Positions 41,585 to 49,457 of a stretch of DNA of 64,000 bases are shown here, piece by piece. Under the pieces are notes generated by a model. The model made no database searches and was not told the origin of the DNA. It was given only the letters and a program-made list of their open reading frames with translations. Position numbers and translations under genes: made by a program. The stretch lies in the NCBI RefSeq assembly GCF_001676785.2, contig NZ_CP015910.2, positions 1,860,001 to 1,924,000 on the forward strand, read 5' to 3'. This stretch comes from Brachyspira hyodysenteriae ATCC 27164. Its GTDB lineage: Bacteria; Spirochaetota; Brachyspiria; Brachyspirales; Brachyspiraceae. The stretch's first letter is position 1. The number at the start of each line of letters is the position of its first letter.

Positions 41585-42115
41585 ATGAGAGCATTTTTAG
41601 CATTAAACTTAAATCAAGAAATAAAAAATAAATATTCTAATATACTTAGAATAAATGAAAATATAGCAGAATTAAAAAAAGTATCAAAAGATAAAATGCA
41701 TATAACATTAGTATTCTTTGATAATATAAAAGAAGAGCAAATAGAATTAATAAAAAAAGAAGTGATTAACTCCTCACCTACTCCATTTAATATAAACTTT
41801 GAAAATATTTCTTACTTCACAAATAAATTCAAAGACATAAATGTAATATTCGTAAAAGCAGTAAGCGAGGAATTAAAAAATTATGTCAAAACTTTAAGAA
41901 GCAATTTAGATAATATAAACAGTCTTAAATATGACAAAAAAGATTTTAAATCTCATATCACATTAGCAAGAGTTAAAAAAGTTTATGATAATGAAAAATT
42001 AAAAGAAAATATTGAGGAAATAGAATTTAGAGCATCATCTTTTATAGCTGATTCTATCACTTTATATTCAAGCGATTTTTATAATTATACAGAAATTTTC
42101 ACTATCAATTTTTAA
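41585..42115 (+). CDS. thpR: RNA 2',3'-cyclic phosphodiesterase (2H family)
   Basis: A 176-aa 2H phosphoesterase, formerly called 2'-5' RNA ligase. Both catalytic HxT motifs are present: H39-I-T41 in KMHITLVFF and H124-I-T126 in FKSHITLARV, in the usual pseudo-twofold arrangement, with the N-terminus MRAFLALNL typical of ThpR. The enzyme opens 2',3'-cyclic phosphates on RNA ends. It is a single gene, with no tRNA-processing partner nearby. Confidence 0.92.
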   Translation: MRAFLALNLNQEIKNKYSNILRINENIAELKKVSKDKMHITLVFFDNIKEEQIELIKKEVINSSPTPFNINFENISYFTNKFKDINVIFVKAVSEELKNYVKTLRSNLDNINSLKYDKKDFKSHITLARVKKVYDNEKLKENIEEIEFRASSFIADSITLYSSDFYNYTEIFTINF

Positions 42116-42216: not shown

Positions 42217-43674
42217 ATGAATAAAATAAATAGAATATATATAGGCTATCCTCCATTTGAAAGCGACAGAGGAGTAGCATTATTATCACAGAACAGACAA
42301 TTTCAATGGTTTAAAAGTCCTACATATATTTATCCTGTTGTTCCTGCTACTGCAGCCACTATGATAAAAAATGCAGGATATCAAGTAGATTTTATTGATG
42401 CCATAGCTAGAAATATGACTACTAAAGAATGGTATCAATATTTAGATTCTAATACACCTGATTTATTATTTTTTGAAGTAAAAACTCCTGTTATATATAA
42501 GGCTTGGAAAATAGTTGATGATCTAAAAGAAAAATATCCTAATATGATTGTTGTTATTGCTGGAGATCATGTTACTGCTATGCCTGATGAAACTATGAAT
42601 AACTGTAAAGTGGATTATTTACTTACAGGCGGGGACTATGATTTCTTGCTTTTTAATTTAATAGAATATTTAAACGGCAAAGCTCAATTAGAAAAAGGCA
42701 TATATTACAGAGAATCAAACACTATAAAAAATACAGGATTCTTTGAATTAAGACATGATTTAAAAAGCCTCCCATTCATAGACAGAGATTTAACCGAGTG
42801 GCAGAGATACGCCTATGATAATGGAAACTTCAAACGCATACCAGGAACTTATATAATGGCGGGAAGAGACTGCTGGCATCATAGATGTACTTTCTGTTCT
42901 TGGACTGGCATATATACAAATTTCCGTGCTAGAACTGCTGAGAATGTTGTTGATGAAGTGGATTTCCTTTACAATAAATACAATATAAGAGAGATAATGG
43001 ACGATACAGGTTGTTTTCCTGTAAAAAAATGGCTTAATGATTTCTGTAATTATATGATAGATAAAAAACTAAATAAAAAAGTTAATATAGACTGCAATAT
43101 GCGTTTCGGTGCTTGTAATGAAGATGAATACAGACTTATGAAAAAAGCAGGATTTAGATTTTTATTATTTGGCTTAGAATCTGCAAGTCAAAATACATTA
43201 GACAGACTCATAAAAGGAAATAAAGTTGAAGAGATACTTCCTTCTTGTAAAGCGGCATCTGATGCAGGATTATCTCCTCATATCACAGTAATGCTTGGTT
43301 ATCCTTGGGAAACAGAAGAAGATATTGAAAAAACTTATGAGCTTACAAAAAAACTTCTTTTAAAAGGCTATGCTAAAACTATGCAAGCTACAATAATAAT
43401 TCCATATCCTGGTACTGAATTATTTAATCAATGTAAAAGAGAAAATTGGCTTACCACAGAAAATTGGGAAGATTATGATATGCGTACTGCTATAATGAAA
43501 ACTGATGTAGGCGAAGAAAAAATCAAATGCTGGATACAAAAACTTTATAATCTTAGCTTTACTCCGCAATTTTTAATGCATAAAGTATTATCAATTAGGG
43601 ATTTAGATGATATTAAATATTATTTAAGAGCATTTAAAAAAGTTTCAAAAGGTCATTTAAAAGACTTTGCATAA
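42217..43674 (+). CDS. B12-binding-domain radical SAM protein with CX4CX2C cluster motif
   Basis: A 485-aa protein. Residues about 15-150 form a cobalamin-binding-like Rossmann domain (PVVPATAATMIKNAGYQVDF, VVIAGDHVTAMPDE, VDYLLTGGDYDFLL). The radical SAM domain starts at the cluster cysteines C219, C224 and C227 in GRDCWHHRCTFCSW. The spacing between the first two is four, not the usual three, recalling the expanded loops of RiPP-modifying B12 radical SAM enzymes. LLFGLESASQNTLDRL and ITVMLGYPWETEEDI follow as expected. Members methylate or rearrange unactivated carbons. The AhpD-like gene 75 bp downstream is a likely partner. Substrate unknown. Confidence 0.88.
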   Translation: MNKINRIYIGYPPFESDRGVALLSQNRQFQWFKSPTYIYPVVPATAATMIKNAGYQVDFIDAIARNMTTKEWYQYLDSNTPDLLFFEVKTPVIYKAWKIVDDLKEKYPNMIVVIAGDHVTAMPDETMNNCKVDYLLTGGDYDFLLFNLIEYLNGKAQLEKGIYYRESNTIKNTGFFELRHDLKSLPFIDRDLTEWQRYAYDNGNFKRIPGTYIMAGRDCWHHRCTFCSWTGIYTNFRARTAENVVDEVDFLYNKYNIREIMDDTGCFPVKKWLNDFCNYMIDKKLNKKVNIDCNMRFGACNEDEYRLMKKAGFRFLLFGLESASQNTLDRLIKGNKVEEILPSCKAASDAGLSPHITVMLGYPWETEEDIEKTYELTKKLLLKGYAKTMQATIIIPYPGTELFNQCKRENWLTTENWEDYDMRTAIMKTDVGEEKIKCWIQKLYNLSFTPQFLMHKVLSIRDLDDIKYYLRAFKKVSKGHLKDFA

Positions 43675-43749
43675 TTTTGTTTTTATTATAAAATAGATAG
43701 AACTATTAATCATAAATTTTTATTAATAAATTAAAATAAGGAGTTATTT

Positions 43750-44307
43750 ATGGCTAGAGTTAAATTTATGGAATATGAAGAAGCTCAAGGAAAAGTAAAA
43801 GAAGCTTTCGACTATCAATTAAAAAAAAGCGGCAGTGTTACAAATATGAAAAAAGCATTATTAAACGACTATGCTACTTATGAAGCATTTATGGGTTGGT
43901 ATGTTTCATTTGACAGATTAGTAGAAGTTGTAGGTAAAAGAGCTGCTATGATATTAGCACATTCTGTTTCTACTACTAACGGATGTATGCTTTGTTCTTT
44001 ATTCTTCATCAGAGATTTAAAAGCTATAGGAGATGATCCTAAAAATCTTAAACTTGATGAAAAAGAACAATTATTATCACAATTAGGTATGCAAATGGTT
44101 AAAGACCCTAATGGTGTTACTGATGAACTTATGAATAATCTTAAAAAACATTTCAATGATTCTGAAATAGTTACTATAGTTGGTTTTGCTGCTCAAATGA
44201 TGGCTACTAACAATTTCAATGCTGTATTAAAAATAGATTTAGATGAATCTTTGATACCTATACAAGGCGAGTTTGAAAAAGAAACTTGGAGAGCAAAAAA
44301 TAACTAA
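43750..44307 (+). CDS. AhpD-like / carboxymuconolactone decarboxylase-family protein
   Basis: A 185-aa all-helical protein with the AhpD-fold motif HSVSTTNGCMLCS (C79 and C82), a redox-active CxxC pair. The His usually found three or four residues after the second Cys in AhpD is not present (CSLFF follows). The family includes alkylhydroperoxidase-like thiol reductases and decarboxylases. AAGGAG precedes the ATG. It follows the radical SAM gene in the same orientation with no terminator between them, and a strong terminator follows, so the two likely form one unit. Confidence 0.82.
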   Translation: MARVKFMEYEEAQGKVKEAFDYQLKKSGSVTNMKKALLNDYATYEAFMGWYVSFDRLVEVVGKRAAMILAHSVSTTNGCMLCSLFFIRDLKAIGDDPKNLKLDEKEQLLSQLGMQMVKDPNGVTDELMNNLKKHFNDSEIVTIVGFAAQMMATNNFNAVLKIDLDESLIPIQGEFEKETWRAKNN

Positions 44308-46020: not shown

Positions 46021-46752
46021 TTATTTTGATTGAGTATTAAAATATTTTTTCTTATTTCTAAATCTTAAACGAATAACTCTAAATAATGCCTCTGCTATAA
46101 TATTTTTAGACATCTTTGATTGTCCGCTTCTTCTTTCATAAAATATTATAGGTTCTTCTTCTACTTTATATCCATTGCTTTCAAAAGAATAATTCATTTC
46201 TATCTGAAAAGAATATCCTGCTGAAAGTATATTATCAAAGTTCATATTTTTTAATACAGATACTCTAAAACATTTAAATCCGCCTGTAATATCCATAATT
46301 TTAGAACCTAAGACAAATGAAGCATATCTATTTCCATAATATGAAAGGAAAAGTCTTCTTAAAGGCCAATTTACAACACTTATTCCATTGCAGTATCTTG
46401 ATCCTATTAATAAATCTAATTTTTCATTTTCCATTCTTTCTATAAATTTAATAACAAAATCAGGATCATGAGAAAAATCAGCATCCATTTCTATTACATA
46501 ATCAGGATTATATTGAAATGAATGTTTAAATCCAGCGATATATGCAGGTCCAAGTCCTTCTTTCTTTTCTCTTTTTAGTAAATGTACTCTATTATTAGAT
46601 AAATATTTTTCTACTATACCAGCAGTACCGTCAGGGCTATTATCATCTACAACTAAAATTTCTATATATTCAGGCAATGATAATACTTTATTAAGCATTT
46701 TTTCTATATTATCTTTTTCATTATATGTAGGCAATACTATAATGGCTTTCAT
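46021..46752 (-). CDS. Polyprenol-phosphate mannosyltransferase-like GT2 glycosyltransferase
   Basis: A 243-aa GT-A fold enzyme. Motifs: LPTYNEKDNIEKML (7-20), VVDDNSPDGTA for nucleotide binding, EMDADFSHDP as the metal-binding DxD region, GSRY, and TGGFKCFR. The length fits the single-domain dolichol-phosphate-mannose synthase class (DPM1-like), without C-terminal membrane helices. It would transfer a sugar from a nucleotide donor to a polyprenyl phosphate for envelope glycans. Its ATG overlaps the stop of the DUF4132-like gene by four bases, so the two are coupled. Confidence 0.88.
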   Translation of the reverse strand: MKAIIVLPTYNEKDNIEKMLNKVLSLPEYIEILVVDDNSPDGTAGIVEKYLSNNRVHLLKREKKEGLGPAYIAGFKHSFQYNPDYVIEMDADFSHDPDFVIKFIERMENEKLDLLIGSRYCNGISVVNWPLRRLFLSYYGNRYASFVLGSKIMDITGGFKCFRVSVLKNMNFDNILSAGYSFQIEMNYSFESNGYKVEEEPIIFYERRSGQSKMSKNIIAEALFRVIRLRFRNKKKYFNTQSK

Positions 46753-49457
46753 TTTATATCTGATTCTCTCCTATTTCTTTTTTCTGTCCTTGTTGTTTTT
46801 TGCACATTCTTCTTAATATAATTATCTATATTGAACATAATATATTTTACATACCTTACATATGATGTTCTAGGATCTATTATATTTTTGTATGAAAATA
46901 TTTCATTATTATTATCTATAGTATAGAATACAATATCTCCAAATAAAATAATATCATTATCATCTATTGCATTATCCATACCCATTAAATTAATTTTTAT
47001 TCCAATAGATATAGATGAATCTATGATCTTATATCCTACTATATACGAATTCTCATAATCTAATTCCATATCAAGAGAATCACTCAAATTCTTAAAAGTC
47101 TTTATTTTTACTTCTTTATTTCTATATTTTACAATGATATTTTCTTTTATATCTCCATCTTCAAAAGAGAAATTAATATTCTGCATCTGATTGAAAGGCT
47201 GTTTTATTTTTAAATCTGTTAATATTTGTTTAGCTTTTTTTATTTCTTCATCTGTCATTTCTACAGGGCTTGCTAATGATAATTGATATTGTTTATTTAA
47301 TTTAATTTCTTCATTGTTATCTATTGCATAGAAAGTATTTGCTTTTCTATCATATTTAACTTGTCTTAATATTTTATCATTCTTATTATATATGGTCCAT
47401 ATAAAAATATCTGCTAATGTACTCATAATATAATTTTCTTCAAATATTTTTTTCCAATCATCAGATGACCATTTTTTTCCTGTCATTAATGCTTTATTAA
47501 GCCTTGATGCCTGAAATTTATATGTAGCTTTTATATTATTTTTTATACTAAAGAATTCATCTAATAAATTTTTACTTATATTATTAGATTTATCTATTTT
47601 AGTTATATATTCTTTTTTCTTATTATCAAATATTTTATCTATATCTAATTTTTCATTTATATATAATGTGAAAGAGCATGAATCATCTTTTAATAATTTC
47701 TTGCCCTCTTTATCTATTCCAAAATCAAGTATTATTTTATCAGATAATTTATCCTCAGAAATATCCAATTTTTTAGCAGCAGCTTTGAATGCTAATTTTG
47801 AAGTATTCTTTATCTGATAATATTTGAAATTATTTGATATATAATCAATAAGAATAAGAGAATAAAGACTTCCATTAAATGCCAATGTAGATATTGCATA
47901 ATTAGCAAGAGATATTCTTCCTGATTCACACCATTCTTTCAGATTGTATCCAACTTTTTCTATTTTATAATCTGATTCATATACTAAATATGGAATCATT
48001 ACATATTTATAAGTTGTGTCAGCACCTTCAAATATCCATCTGTCATATATAGTTTTTATTACATTAATAAAAGAATTAAAGTCAAAATACGAAATTATTT
48101 TATCTAAATCTTTTATTTTTGTAGGAGCTTTGAGCCTTGAATATTCTAAGTATATATATTTAATTATTATTATAGGTATAGTTTGATTAGAATTTTTGCT
48201 TTTTACACCATATAATAAAGATTCATCTAAACATAATAGATTCTTTTCAAATTTCTTATTATAATTTTTATTTACGAAATTAACTATACTATCAACATCT
48301 TTAAAACCTGAATTAATAATTTTTTTATTTTTCCATCTTTTTAAGATATCTCTAGCTAAATCATTATCCAAACTTTTTAAATATTCATAAGATTCTTTTT
48401 TCTTACGGTTAATTATTTTTATTGCGGACTTTCTAATACTTGCAGATTTATTTTCTAAAAGTGAGCATAATATTTTACTTGATCCAAAATCTATTTCTTT
48501 GCTATAAAGCTCATTTAAAAATGGTATAAAGTTCTTACTGTTTTTTGTAACTCTTTTAACAAAATTTTTATTTGTAAATAGACTTTCGAAATATTCTGAA
48601 TTCTTTTTGATAAGAGAATAGAAGAAACTATTAAACTCCCTATTTTTTATTTGAACTGCAAATGAATCATAATATGATATTCTATCATTATAAGAATAAA
48701 AGAATATATAAGAAATGATAATATCAGCTAAAGTTACATTAAGATTAGTCAAATAATCTAAACTTTCCTGATATGTTGTTGCAAATCCTTCTTTTCTTAT
48801 TAACATTAAATAAGTTAATGCTTTATAGCTATTAGTTTTAAGTATTATATTAAGAAGTTTTTTAGATTTTTTTGAGTAATCTGATAATAACAAAATATAA
48901 TATATTCTGTAATTATTCAATATGGATTTCTTTATAAATTCTATATCATTATTACTAGGTGCTCTTTTTATATGATATGGGGTATAGGGTTTCAGGGCAC
49001 TAAAATAACCAAATGCTGATTTCTTTACATGGAATTTCTTTATTAAATCATATCTCTTATCATCTTCATATATAATATCATCATTTATTACAGTAATACT
49101 GTTAGGTGTTCCTAAATGTTCAACTACATTATATTTAACATAATAAGAATCATATATTTTCTGCATTAACAAATCTATTTTTTTATCTGCTATTTTTAAA
49201 TTAGCTTTTTCATCTTCATTTTTTAGAAGAATTGCTGTTAATATTAAATATATTCCGCAGTTATTACTAGTCTCTAATATTTTATATAATGAATAAAAAT
49301 ATTCTTTATCTTTATTATAAGTATAATTAGCCTCTCTTAGAAAATCCAATGCATATATATCATTTTCTACTATTCCTCTATTGATAACGCATATTTCTTT
49401 TTCTAAGTTGTATCCCTCATATCTTTTACTAAATAGAGAACTATTAAATTTTTCCAT
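46749..49457 (-). CDS. Large DUF4132-like protein without leucine-rich repeats
   Basis: A 902-aa protein. The N-terminal 400 residues are helical and HEAT-like (SILCSLLENKSASIRKSAIKII). From about 410 onward it parallels the C-terminal region of the two DUF285 fusion proteins: FKDVDSIVNFVNKNYNKK, IIKYIYLEYSRLK, YIMSTLADIFIWTIYNKNDKI, SLASPVEMTDEEI and LTDLKIKQPFNQM. The last two mark a DUF4132-like domain as in MolR/YehF proteins, of unknown function. No signal peptide. It is upstream of and coupled to a glycosyltransferase gene, which may be its only functional hint. Confidence 0.75.
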   Translation of the reverse strand: MEKFNSSLFSKRYEGYNLEKEICVINRGIVENDIYALDFLREANYTYNKDKEYFYSLYKILETSNNCGIYLILTAILLKNEDEKANLKIADKKIDLLMQKIYDSYYVKYNVVEHLGTPNSITVINDDIIYEDDKRYDLIKKFHVKKSAFGYFSALKPYTPYHIKRAPSNNDIEFIKKSILNNYRIYYILLLSDYSKKSKKLLNIILKTNSYKALTYLMLIRKEGFATTYQESLDYLTNLNVTLADIIISYIFFYSYNDRISYYDSFAVQIKNREFNSFFYSLIKKNSEYFESLFTNKNFVKRVTKNSKNFIPFLNELYSKEIDFGSSKILCSLLENKSASIRKSAIKIINRKKKESYEYLKSLDNDLARDILKRWKNKKIINSGFKDVDSIVNFVNKNYNKKFEKNLLCLDESLLYGVKSKNSNQTIPIIIIKYIYLEYSRLKAPTKIKDLDKIISYFDFNSFINVIKTIYDRWIFEGADTTYKYVMIPYLVYESDYKIEKVGYNLKEWCESGRISLANYAISTLAFNGSLYSLILIDYISNNFKYYQIKNTSKLAFKAAAKKLDISEDKLSDKIILDFGIDKEGKKLLKDDSCSFTLYINEKLDIDKIFDNKKKEYITKIDKSNNISKNLLDEFFSIKNNIKATYKFQASRLNKALMTGKKWSSDDWKKIFEENYIMSTLADIFIWTIYNKNDKILRQVKYDRKANTFYAIDNNEEIKLNKQYQLSLASPVEMTDEEIKKAKQILTDLKIKQPFNQMQNINFSFEDGDIKENIIVKYRNKEVKIKTFKNLSDSLDMELDYENSYIVGYKIIDSSISIGIKINLMGMDNAIDDNDIILFGDIVFYTIDNNNEIFSYKNIIDPRTSYVRYVKYIMFNIDNYIKKNVQKTTRTEKRNRRESDIK

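Follow-up and report, generated by a model that had tools for sequence, protein, structure and literature searches.

Radical S-adenosylmethionine (SAM) enzymes are defined by their cluster, which is held by a loop with three cysteines. Several described members of this superfamily act on sugars. HpnJ acts on a lipid-linked sugar after the glycosyltransferase HpnI and the deacetylase HpnK (PMC12583986). In aminoglycoside pathways, the B12 radical SAM enzymes GenD1, GenK and Sis14 have the motif Cx4Cx2C; GenD1 and GenK C-methylate sugars, and GenD1 was assigned as a sugar C-methyltransferase both in vivo and in vitro (PMC4340712). The spacing CX4CX2C was already listed among radical SAM signatures in a 2011 paper (PMC3087415). 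Here we describe P0001, a B12-binding/radical SAM protein with this spacing, encoded in a 64,000-nucleotide stretch of the genome of Brachyspira hyodysenteriae ATCC 27164 (the window, C1:1860001-1924000 of source genome G000, which comprises 3.07 Mb in 2 contigs), together with a sister copy that has lost the cluster cysteines. Taken alone, P0001 fits a known kind of enzyme, and the novelty lies in its pairing with a maintained, cluster-less sister. A copy that selection keeps throughout a genus without the cluster cysteines, next to an intact sister with an uncommon loop, amounts to a natural experiment on the purpose of the remaining fold. Swine dysentery and intestinal spirochaetosis are caused by members of Brachyspira, and the intact enzyme offers a testable lead to the modification of an envelope sugar or glycolipid in these organisms.

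The cluster loop and family of P0001

The gene and the elements of its product are placed in the window as follows.

42217..43674, plus strand: P0001, B12-binding/radical SAM protein, intact copy, 485 aa, with Pfam PF02310 and PF04055 above cut-off
42349..42618, plus strand: B12-binding domain, residues 45-134 of P0001 (PF02310 stretch)
42871..42897, plus strand: cluster loop CWHHRCTFC, residues 219-227, CX4CX2C (from the sequence)
42880..43344, plus strand: radical SAM core, residues 222-376 of P0001 (PF04055 stretch)

Membership of the radical SAM superfamily follows from the three-cysteine loop and the PF04055 core (65.9 bits, cut-off 29.5), and the N-terminal PF02310 domain (37.3 bits, cut-off 32.1) places the protein in the B12-binding class, with cobalamin binding predicted. 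An earlier note on this DNA had called it a B12 radical SAM protein with a lengthened loop, four residues separating the first two cysteines, and both parts of that description hold. The translation reads AGRDCWHHRCTFCSW, with C219 (codon 42871-42873), WHHR, C224, TF and C227 (ending at 42897). P0001 thus shares Cx4Cx2C and the B12 radical SAM type with GenD1 and GenK, and as in those enzymes the loop may hold an ordinary [4Fe-4S] cluster with one extra residue. GenD1 is larger, at 77 kDa (PMC4340712), and a shared motif alone is not shared membership.

The intact copy is found in 26 of 26 Brachyspira genomes, that in G013 being a fragment at a contig end. Across 25 orthologues C219, W220, H221, H222, C224 and C227 are invariant, R223 is kept in 24, and the genes are under purifying selection (median ratio of nonsynonymous to synonymous substitution rates, dN/dS, 0.041 over 257 pairs). 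Motifs were counted over cysteine spacings of 2 to 12 residues. Among the 21 PF04055 proteins of G000, P0001 is alone in having a CX4CX2C cluster motif; the spacing is CX3CX2C in 18, one of which (L154) also holds a CX4CX2C string elsewhere in its sequence, and CX8CX2C in one, and one protein is without a motif. The CX8CX2C protein, L165 (G000:C1:55698-56198), is the sole further departure besides P0001 and the cysteine-less copy. Twenty distant B12 radical SAM relatives from spirochaetes, 22-29% identical to P0001 and including one from another Brachyspira, comprise 19 with CX3CX2C and 1 with CX4CX2C. Outside Brachyspira, all 11 intact relatives in the clade of P0001 have CX4CX2C, with varied fillings (CWHHAC, CWYHQC, CWWGKC, CSFHAC, CTFGKC, CHWHKC and CFHNKC). 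The lengthened loop is the rule within this spirochaete clade, and is uncommon rather than unique. Within this radical SAM family there is also a sister clade with 8 to about 26 residues between the first two cysteines (counted by eye), and these longer loops sometimes contain cysteine themselves. Its members are:

L066:1174-2688, minus strand: sister-clade gene, long loop
L067:5750-7288, minus strand: sister-clade gene, long loop
L063:6781-8235, minus strand: sister-clade gene, long loop
L064:6481-7932, minus strand: sister-clade gene, long loop
L106:6939-8399, minus strand: sister-clade gene, long loop

The sister-clade gene in L063 adjoins polysaccharide-deacetylase-like and family-2 glycosyltransferase (GT2)-like genes, an arrangement that recalls hpnIJK.

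The best-scoring named family for P0001 is HpnJ (TIGR03471, 161.8 bits over residues 36-468), followed by BchE (TIGR02026, 145.9 bits). Both scores are far below the equivalog cut-offs (577.6 and 481.35, respectively), and P0001 is therefore assigned to neither. No named NCBIfam cut-off is reached among the best 25 of 30 matches, and P0001 is not a recognised housekeeping enzyme, an identity that would have counted against the earlier note. It belongs to a spirochaete clade that has no name of its own and is related to HpnJ and BchE. When 296 spirochaete genomes were scanned, with the five best first-look candidates of each being scored, 38 of them, from 10 of 138 genera, proved to carry the family (expectation value, E, up to 1e-60).

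The cysteine-less sister copy

The second copy in G000 and the gene next to it are located as follows.

C1:649093-650541 (L057:7091-8554, minus strand in L057): cysteine-less paralogue, by sequence match
C1 near 649-651 kb (L057:8575-9015, minus strand in L057): 8-cysteine CxxCxxCC gene (PF03692, 28.2 bits, cut-off 23)

This paralogue is present as an open reading frame in 25 of the 26 Brachyspira genomes and is 42-50% identical to P0001. It was not found in G006, an assembly that is 88% complete and whose second match is a different, 31% identical protein. In none of the 25 sequences is there a cysteine at any of the three cluster positions, which are occupied by Ser/Ala/Gly, Tyr/Phe/His and Asn/Ala/Ser/Val, respectively, and all 25 fall outside the three-cysteine definition of radical SAM proteins; five have a single cysteine at another position of the loop. 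The losses extend into the core, where E321 is replaced by Pro in 23 and His in 2, R296 by Tyr in 24 and Asn in 1, and an Asp at D263 is found in 0. Residues of this kind we take to belong to the SAM-binding motifs. Other elements are retained in 25 of 25 sequences, among them the N-terminal GDH (116-118) and PYPxT (396-400), and the G000 paralogue passes both Pfam cut-offs, PF04055 with 35.8 bits and the B12-binding domain barely (32.5 against 32.1).

Such a copy could be a decaying pseudogene, and its looser evolution and its absence from the G006 assembly would fit this. The median dN/dS is 0.147, compared with 0.041 for the intact copy, and 155 of 512 alignment columns are invariant, compared with 366 of 486. 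(Each copy gave 300 pairs; those with dS outside 0.05-1.5 or a failed estimate, 6 for the cysteine-less copy and 43 for the intact one, were dropped; the set is without the fragmentary intact copy of G013.) Against decay stand a reading frame that stays open in 25 of the 26 genomes, a dN/dS of at most 0.51 in all 294 pairs, 18 of 32 tabulated key positions kept in every one of the 25 sequences, and an 8-cysteine gene that is adjacent in 25 of 25 loci. We consider decay hardly likely. The paralogue evolves more loosely than the intact copy, yet is kept under purifying selection, which argues that it is retained for some function, and it has the appearance of a radical SAM pseudoenzyme that is being maintained. 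In a literature search confined largely to open papers we found no described radical SAM pseudoenzyme; a passage of PMC11574389 concerns U32 proteins and is not on point.

The 8-cysteine neighbour belongs to PF03692 by both its Pfam score and its cysteine pattern. Its gene lies directly upstream of the paralogue, with gaps of -38 to 29 bp, in all 25 Brachyspira loci, and it adjoins intact copies too in G074 and G148. The eight cysteines are invariant in 29 of 29 alignment rows, which represent 27 distinct genes. In many of the paralogue loci, a putative MarR-type gene also lies upstream.

In maximum-likelihood trees, the sequences from G074, G066 and G148a split off together with the cysteine-less copies (support 99/94 and 98/94), and the P0001 orthologues form a separate group (100/100). 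Each tree took 9 of 25 sequences from either Brachyspira group; the second was built without six rows (G036 and five clade-b rows), and the second relative from G067, L111, was in neither. Because the trees separate the two groups, we place the duplication before the origin of the genus and the loss of the cluster in the copy at the CxxCxxCC locus. Support for grouping G148a next to the cysteine-less copies is weak (82/48 and 76/50 in the two trees). A degenerate copy is also found in G066, a member of the Brachyspiraceae (L104:6482-7936, minus strand), with Y, T and S at the three cysteine positions. Its contig ends 238 bp upstream, where the 8-cysteine neighbour would lie. No intact copy was detected in this genome, which is 98% complete, at E up to 1e-60, and this argues against an obligate partnership of the paralogue with P0001. 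One cluster loss and two separate losses, in Brachyspira and in G066, are indistinguishable (approximately unbiased test, p-AU 0.378).

One intriguing possibility is that the second Brachyspira copy, having lost its cluster residues, was retained as a true pseudoenzyme that works with the 8-cysteine protein, e.g., as a cobalamin- or substrate-binding carrier or as a regulator of the pathway of the intact enzyme. We hold this tentatively, at a little less than an even chance. In its boldest form, the cysteines of the partner may supply a relocated metal site.

Glycan-gene neighbourhoods and the proposed substrate of P0001

In six of eight genomes from outside the Brachyspiraceae, the clade's gene has a GT2 gene no more than 3 kb away, where chance would give about 0.025-0.038 per genome. 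In G025, one of those without a GT2 gene at this distance, an O-antigen ligase is next door, and the neighbourhood in G108 includes a flippase. One type of GT2 gene recurs close to the radical SAM gene: the two are separated by 28 bp in G009, a divergent Brachyspira, and by a single methyltransferase gene in G039 and G068, and they abut in G050. The fold matches of a low-confidence model of P0001 are led by the B12 radical SAM enzymes MgmA, CysS, OxsB, TsrM and TokK, and the highest TM-scores among the 50 matches listed belong to AprD4, in an entry bound to the aminoglycoside paromamine. On account of the GT2 neighbourhoods, the analogy to HpnJ and the precedent of GenD1, we propose that P0001 carries out radical tailoring of a lipid-linked or envelope sugar, a proposal to which we give an even chance. 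The sugar, borne by a lipid or an envelope glycan, would lose a hydrogen atom to P0001 and then be C-methylated or rearranged by it. A family-2 glycosyltransferase would put this sugar in place, as HpnI does for HpnJ.

Several points weigh against this proposal. Three of the six GT2-linked genomes are from one genus, so the independent count is four of six genera. G067 has no GT2 gene within 3 kb and no evident sugar-transfer gene alongside; only 370 bp of its contig precede the gene, and on the side that the contig covers there is a SpoIID-type gene. In G074 and G148, both Brachyspiraceae, the intact copy is beside the CxxCxxCC gene, with no such GT2 gene in the stretch examined. The sugar argument is weaker for Brachyspira itself, because most of its members, G000 included, keep the GT2 gene elsewhere on the chromosome (about 945 kb off in G000). 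The two analogies also point in different directions: HpnJ and BchE are not known as methylases, and the comparisons with GenD1 and with HpnJ therefore imply different reactions. On the cobalamin side, the host genome yielded three PF02310 proteins, two of them from the family of P0001. Finally, the AlphaFold model, calculated from an alignment of 12 rows that are 86-98% identical to P0001, is poor (mean predicted local distance difference test score, pLDDT, 59.9). Residues 177-239 are below 50 and the loop is unmodelled, for which reason we make no statement on loop geometry.

P0001 may instead act on a membrane lipid itself, through methylation, cyclisation or cross-linking of an acyl or isoprenoid chain. 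Its third NCBIfam match, rSAM_ladder_B12, is a lipid-biosynthesis family (85.0 bits, cut-off 360), the hopanoid family HpnR scores 69.0, and the gene in G026 starts 8 bp after a CTP_transf_1 gene. The glycan genes found next to it in several lineages (glycosyltransferases, O-antigen ligase, flippase) are at odds with such a role, and no squalene-hopene cyclase passes the PF13243 cut-off in any of 41 genomes, with one sub-cut-off match in G026 and a control search that was positive in 2 of 14 known genomes. A lipid substrate seems to us unlikely. The cyclase result also makes a hopanoid role unlikely and sets these hosts apart from those of HpnJ; together with the scores below cut-off, it led us to reject the HpnJ/hopanoid and BchE identities. 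Modification of a ribosomally synthesized and post-translationally modified peptide (RiPP) is another possibility, in line with the peptide option raised in the earlier note. Long Trp/His loops occur in RiPP maturases, and two B12 radical SAM families of this type are among the matches of P0001, ApyD (83 bits) and TIGR03975 (73.2 bits). These scores are far under the cut-offs (750 and 281.85) and under those for HpnJ and BchE, the relatives of P0001 are found near glycosyltransferases, and neither of the flanking gaps (101 and 75 bp), to which the search for a precursor peptide was confined, holds an open reading frame of at least 20 aa. We rejected a RiPP maturase on the scores and the flanking gaps, and regard it as highly improbable. 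PMC4289311 deals with a different peptide cluster, and no evidence for the mechanism of P0001 was drawn from it. The likely substrate class thereby shifts from peptides to sugars.

The AhpD-like neighbour and further observations

The genes on either side of P0001 in the window are:

43750..44307, plus strand: P0002, AhpD-like protein, 185 aa, neighbour of P0001, with AhpD-type structures at the top of its Foldseek list
43984..44007, plus strand: CxxC (C79, C82) and, after it, Phe86 at the position of the AhpD His (sequence and profile alignment)
41585..42115, plus strand: LigT-like 2'-5' RNA ligase/phosphodiesterase (PF02834), upstream and unrelated, used as synteny control

P0002 resembles AhpD and the peroxidase-related family TIGR01926 in its CxxC (C79-ML-C82) and perhaps in fold, its all-helical model of modest quality (pLDDT 66.6) giving top Foldseek entries of the AhpD/carboxymuconolactone-decarboxylase type, the best E being only 0.011. 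It differs in having F86 where the AhpD-type structures 2oyo and 6k40 have His (profile alignment, E 0.018 and 0.091), and thus lacks the combination of CxxC and catalytic His that characterizes AhpD, as the earlier note had observed. It scores 31.8 bits against TIGR01926, below the cut-off of 81.8, and has no Pfam match at E 0.001.

The earlier note had further suggested that the two neighbours act as a pair and had called for a comparison of genome neighbourhoods; this shows that the pair is not conserved, a result that the note itself had named as counting against it. Homologues of P0002 are present in 23 of 25 Brachyspira genomes, and the gene was not found in G009 and G010, both of which keep the radical SAM gene. 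In the 23 genomes with both, the two genes are on one strand and less than 100 bp apart in 9, 2.3-2.8 kb apart in 3, 11.5 and 18.9 kb apart in 2, and 0.5 and 0.94 Mb apart on one contig in 2; in the other 7 they are on different contigs, which in draft assemblies is not necessarily separation. As an unrelated yardstick, 8 of 25 loci retain the LigT gene upstream of the radical SAM gene, at a distance of up to 122 bp in 6 of these, counted in the available flanks, some of which end at contig ends. With 9 of 23 close pairs set against these 8 of 25, the link to the AhpD-like gene exceeds ordinary local synteny by a little at most. A GT2 gene is found no more than 332 bp from the AhpD-like gene in 11 of 22 genomes with both (this count leaves out G008, where the AhpD-like gene is split over two contigs with its tail near GT2), and in G022 the radical SAM, AhpD-like and GT2 genes stand in a row, at intervals of 57 and 299 bp. 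Most simply, the three genes would go back to one old cluster, since scattered by rearrangement.

Cooperation of P0001 with the AhpD-like protein, the latter handling the thiol or redox side, would be close to the earlier idea, and the shared strand, the close spacing in 9 of 23 genomes, slightly above that of LigT, and the links to GT2 are in its favour. It is opposed by the separation of the two genes on one long contig in G007, G016, G021 and G024, by the two genomes in which the AhpD-like gene was not found, and by the count of 0 homologues in 16 other spirochaete genomes searched, although several of these carry the radical SAM clade. We find such cooperation improbable. On the spacing, the two genomes and the LigT comparison, a conserved partner unit was rejected; what joins the AhpD-like gene to that of P0001 is local synteny that has broken up, not an obligate partnership, and its product is dropped as the assumed partner of P0001.

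Relatives of P0001 on mobile elements were also considered. A phage origin was rejected, the one match being a 22% identical protein of a Streptomyces phage that has been deposited twice. Plasmid relatives comprise 78 records, all below 60% identity. The first listed, on plasmid 1 of Lawsonia intracellularis, another pig gut bacterium, is a 28% (27.9%) identical radical SAM protein with CX3CX2C (L169:7004-8467, plus strand) and sits in a glycan cluster with GT2, GalE and several methyltransferases. Virulence-linked radical SAM genes are located on a B. hyodysenteriae plasmid (PMC4267127). P0001 was rejected as one of these, as it is chromosomal and has no match on contig C2 of G000, which carries two radical SAM genes of its own. 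Elsewhere in the genus, Brachyspira alvinipulli encodes a squalene-synthase-like protein (L025:3303-4301, minus strand; TIGR01559, 158.9 bits, cut-off 286.75). Further along the window, a gene for a 902-aa DUF4132 protein (46749-49457, minus strand) overlaps a GT2 gene (PF00535; 46021-46752, minus strand) by 4 bp.

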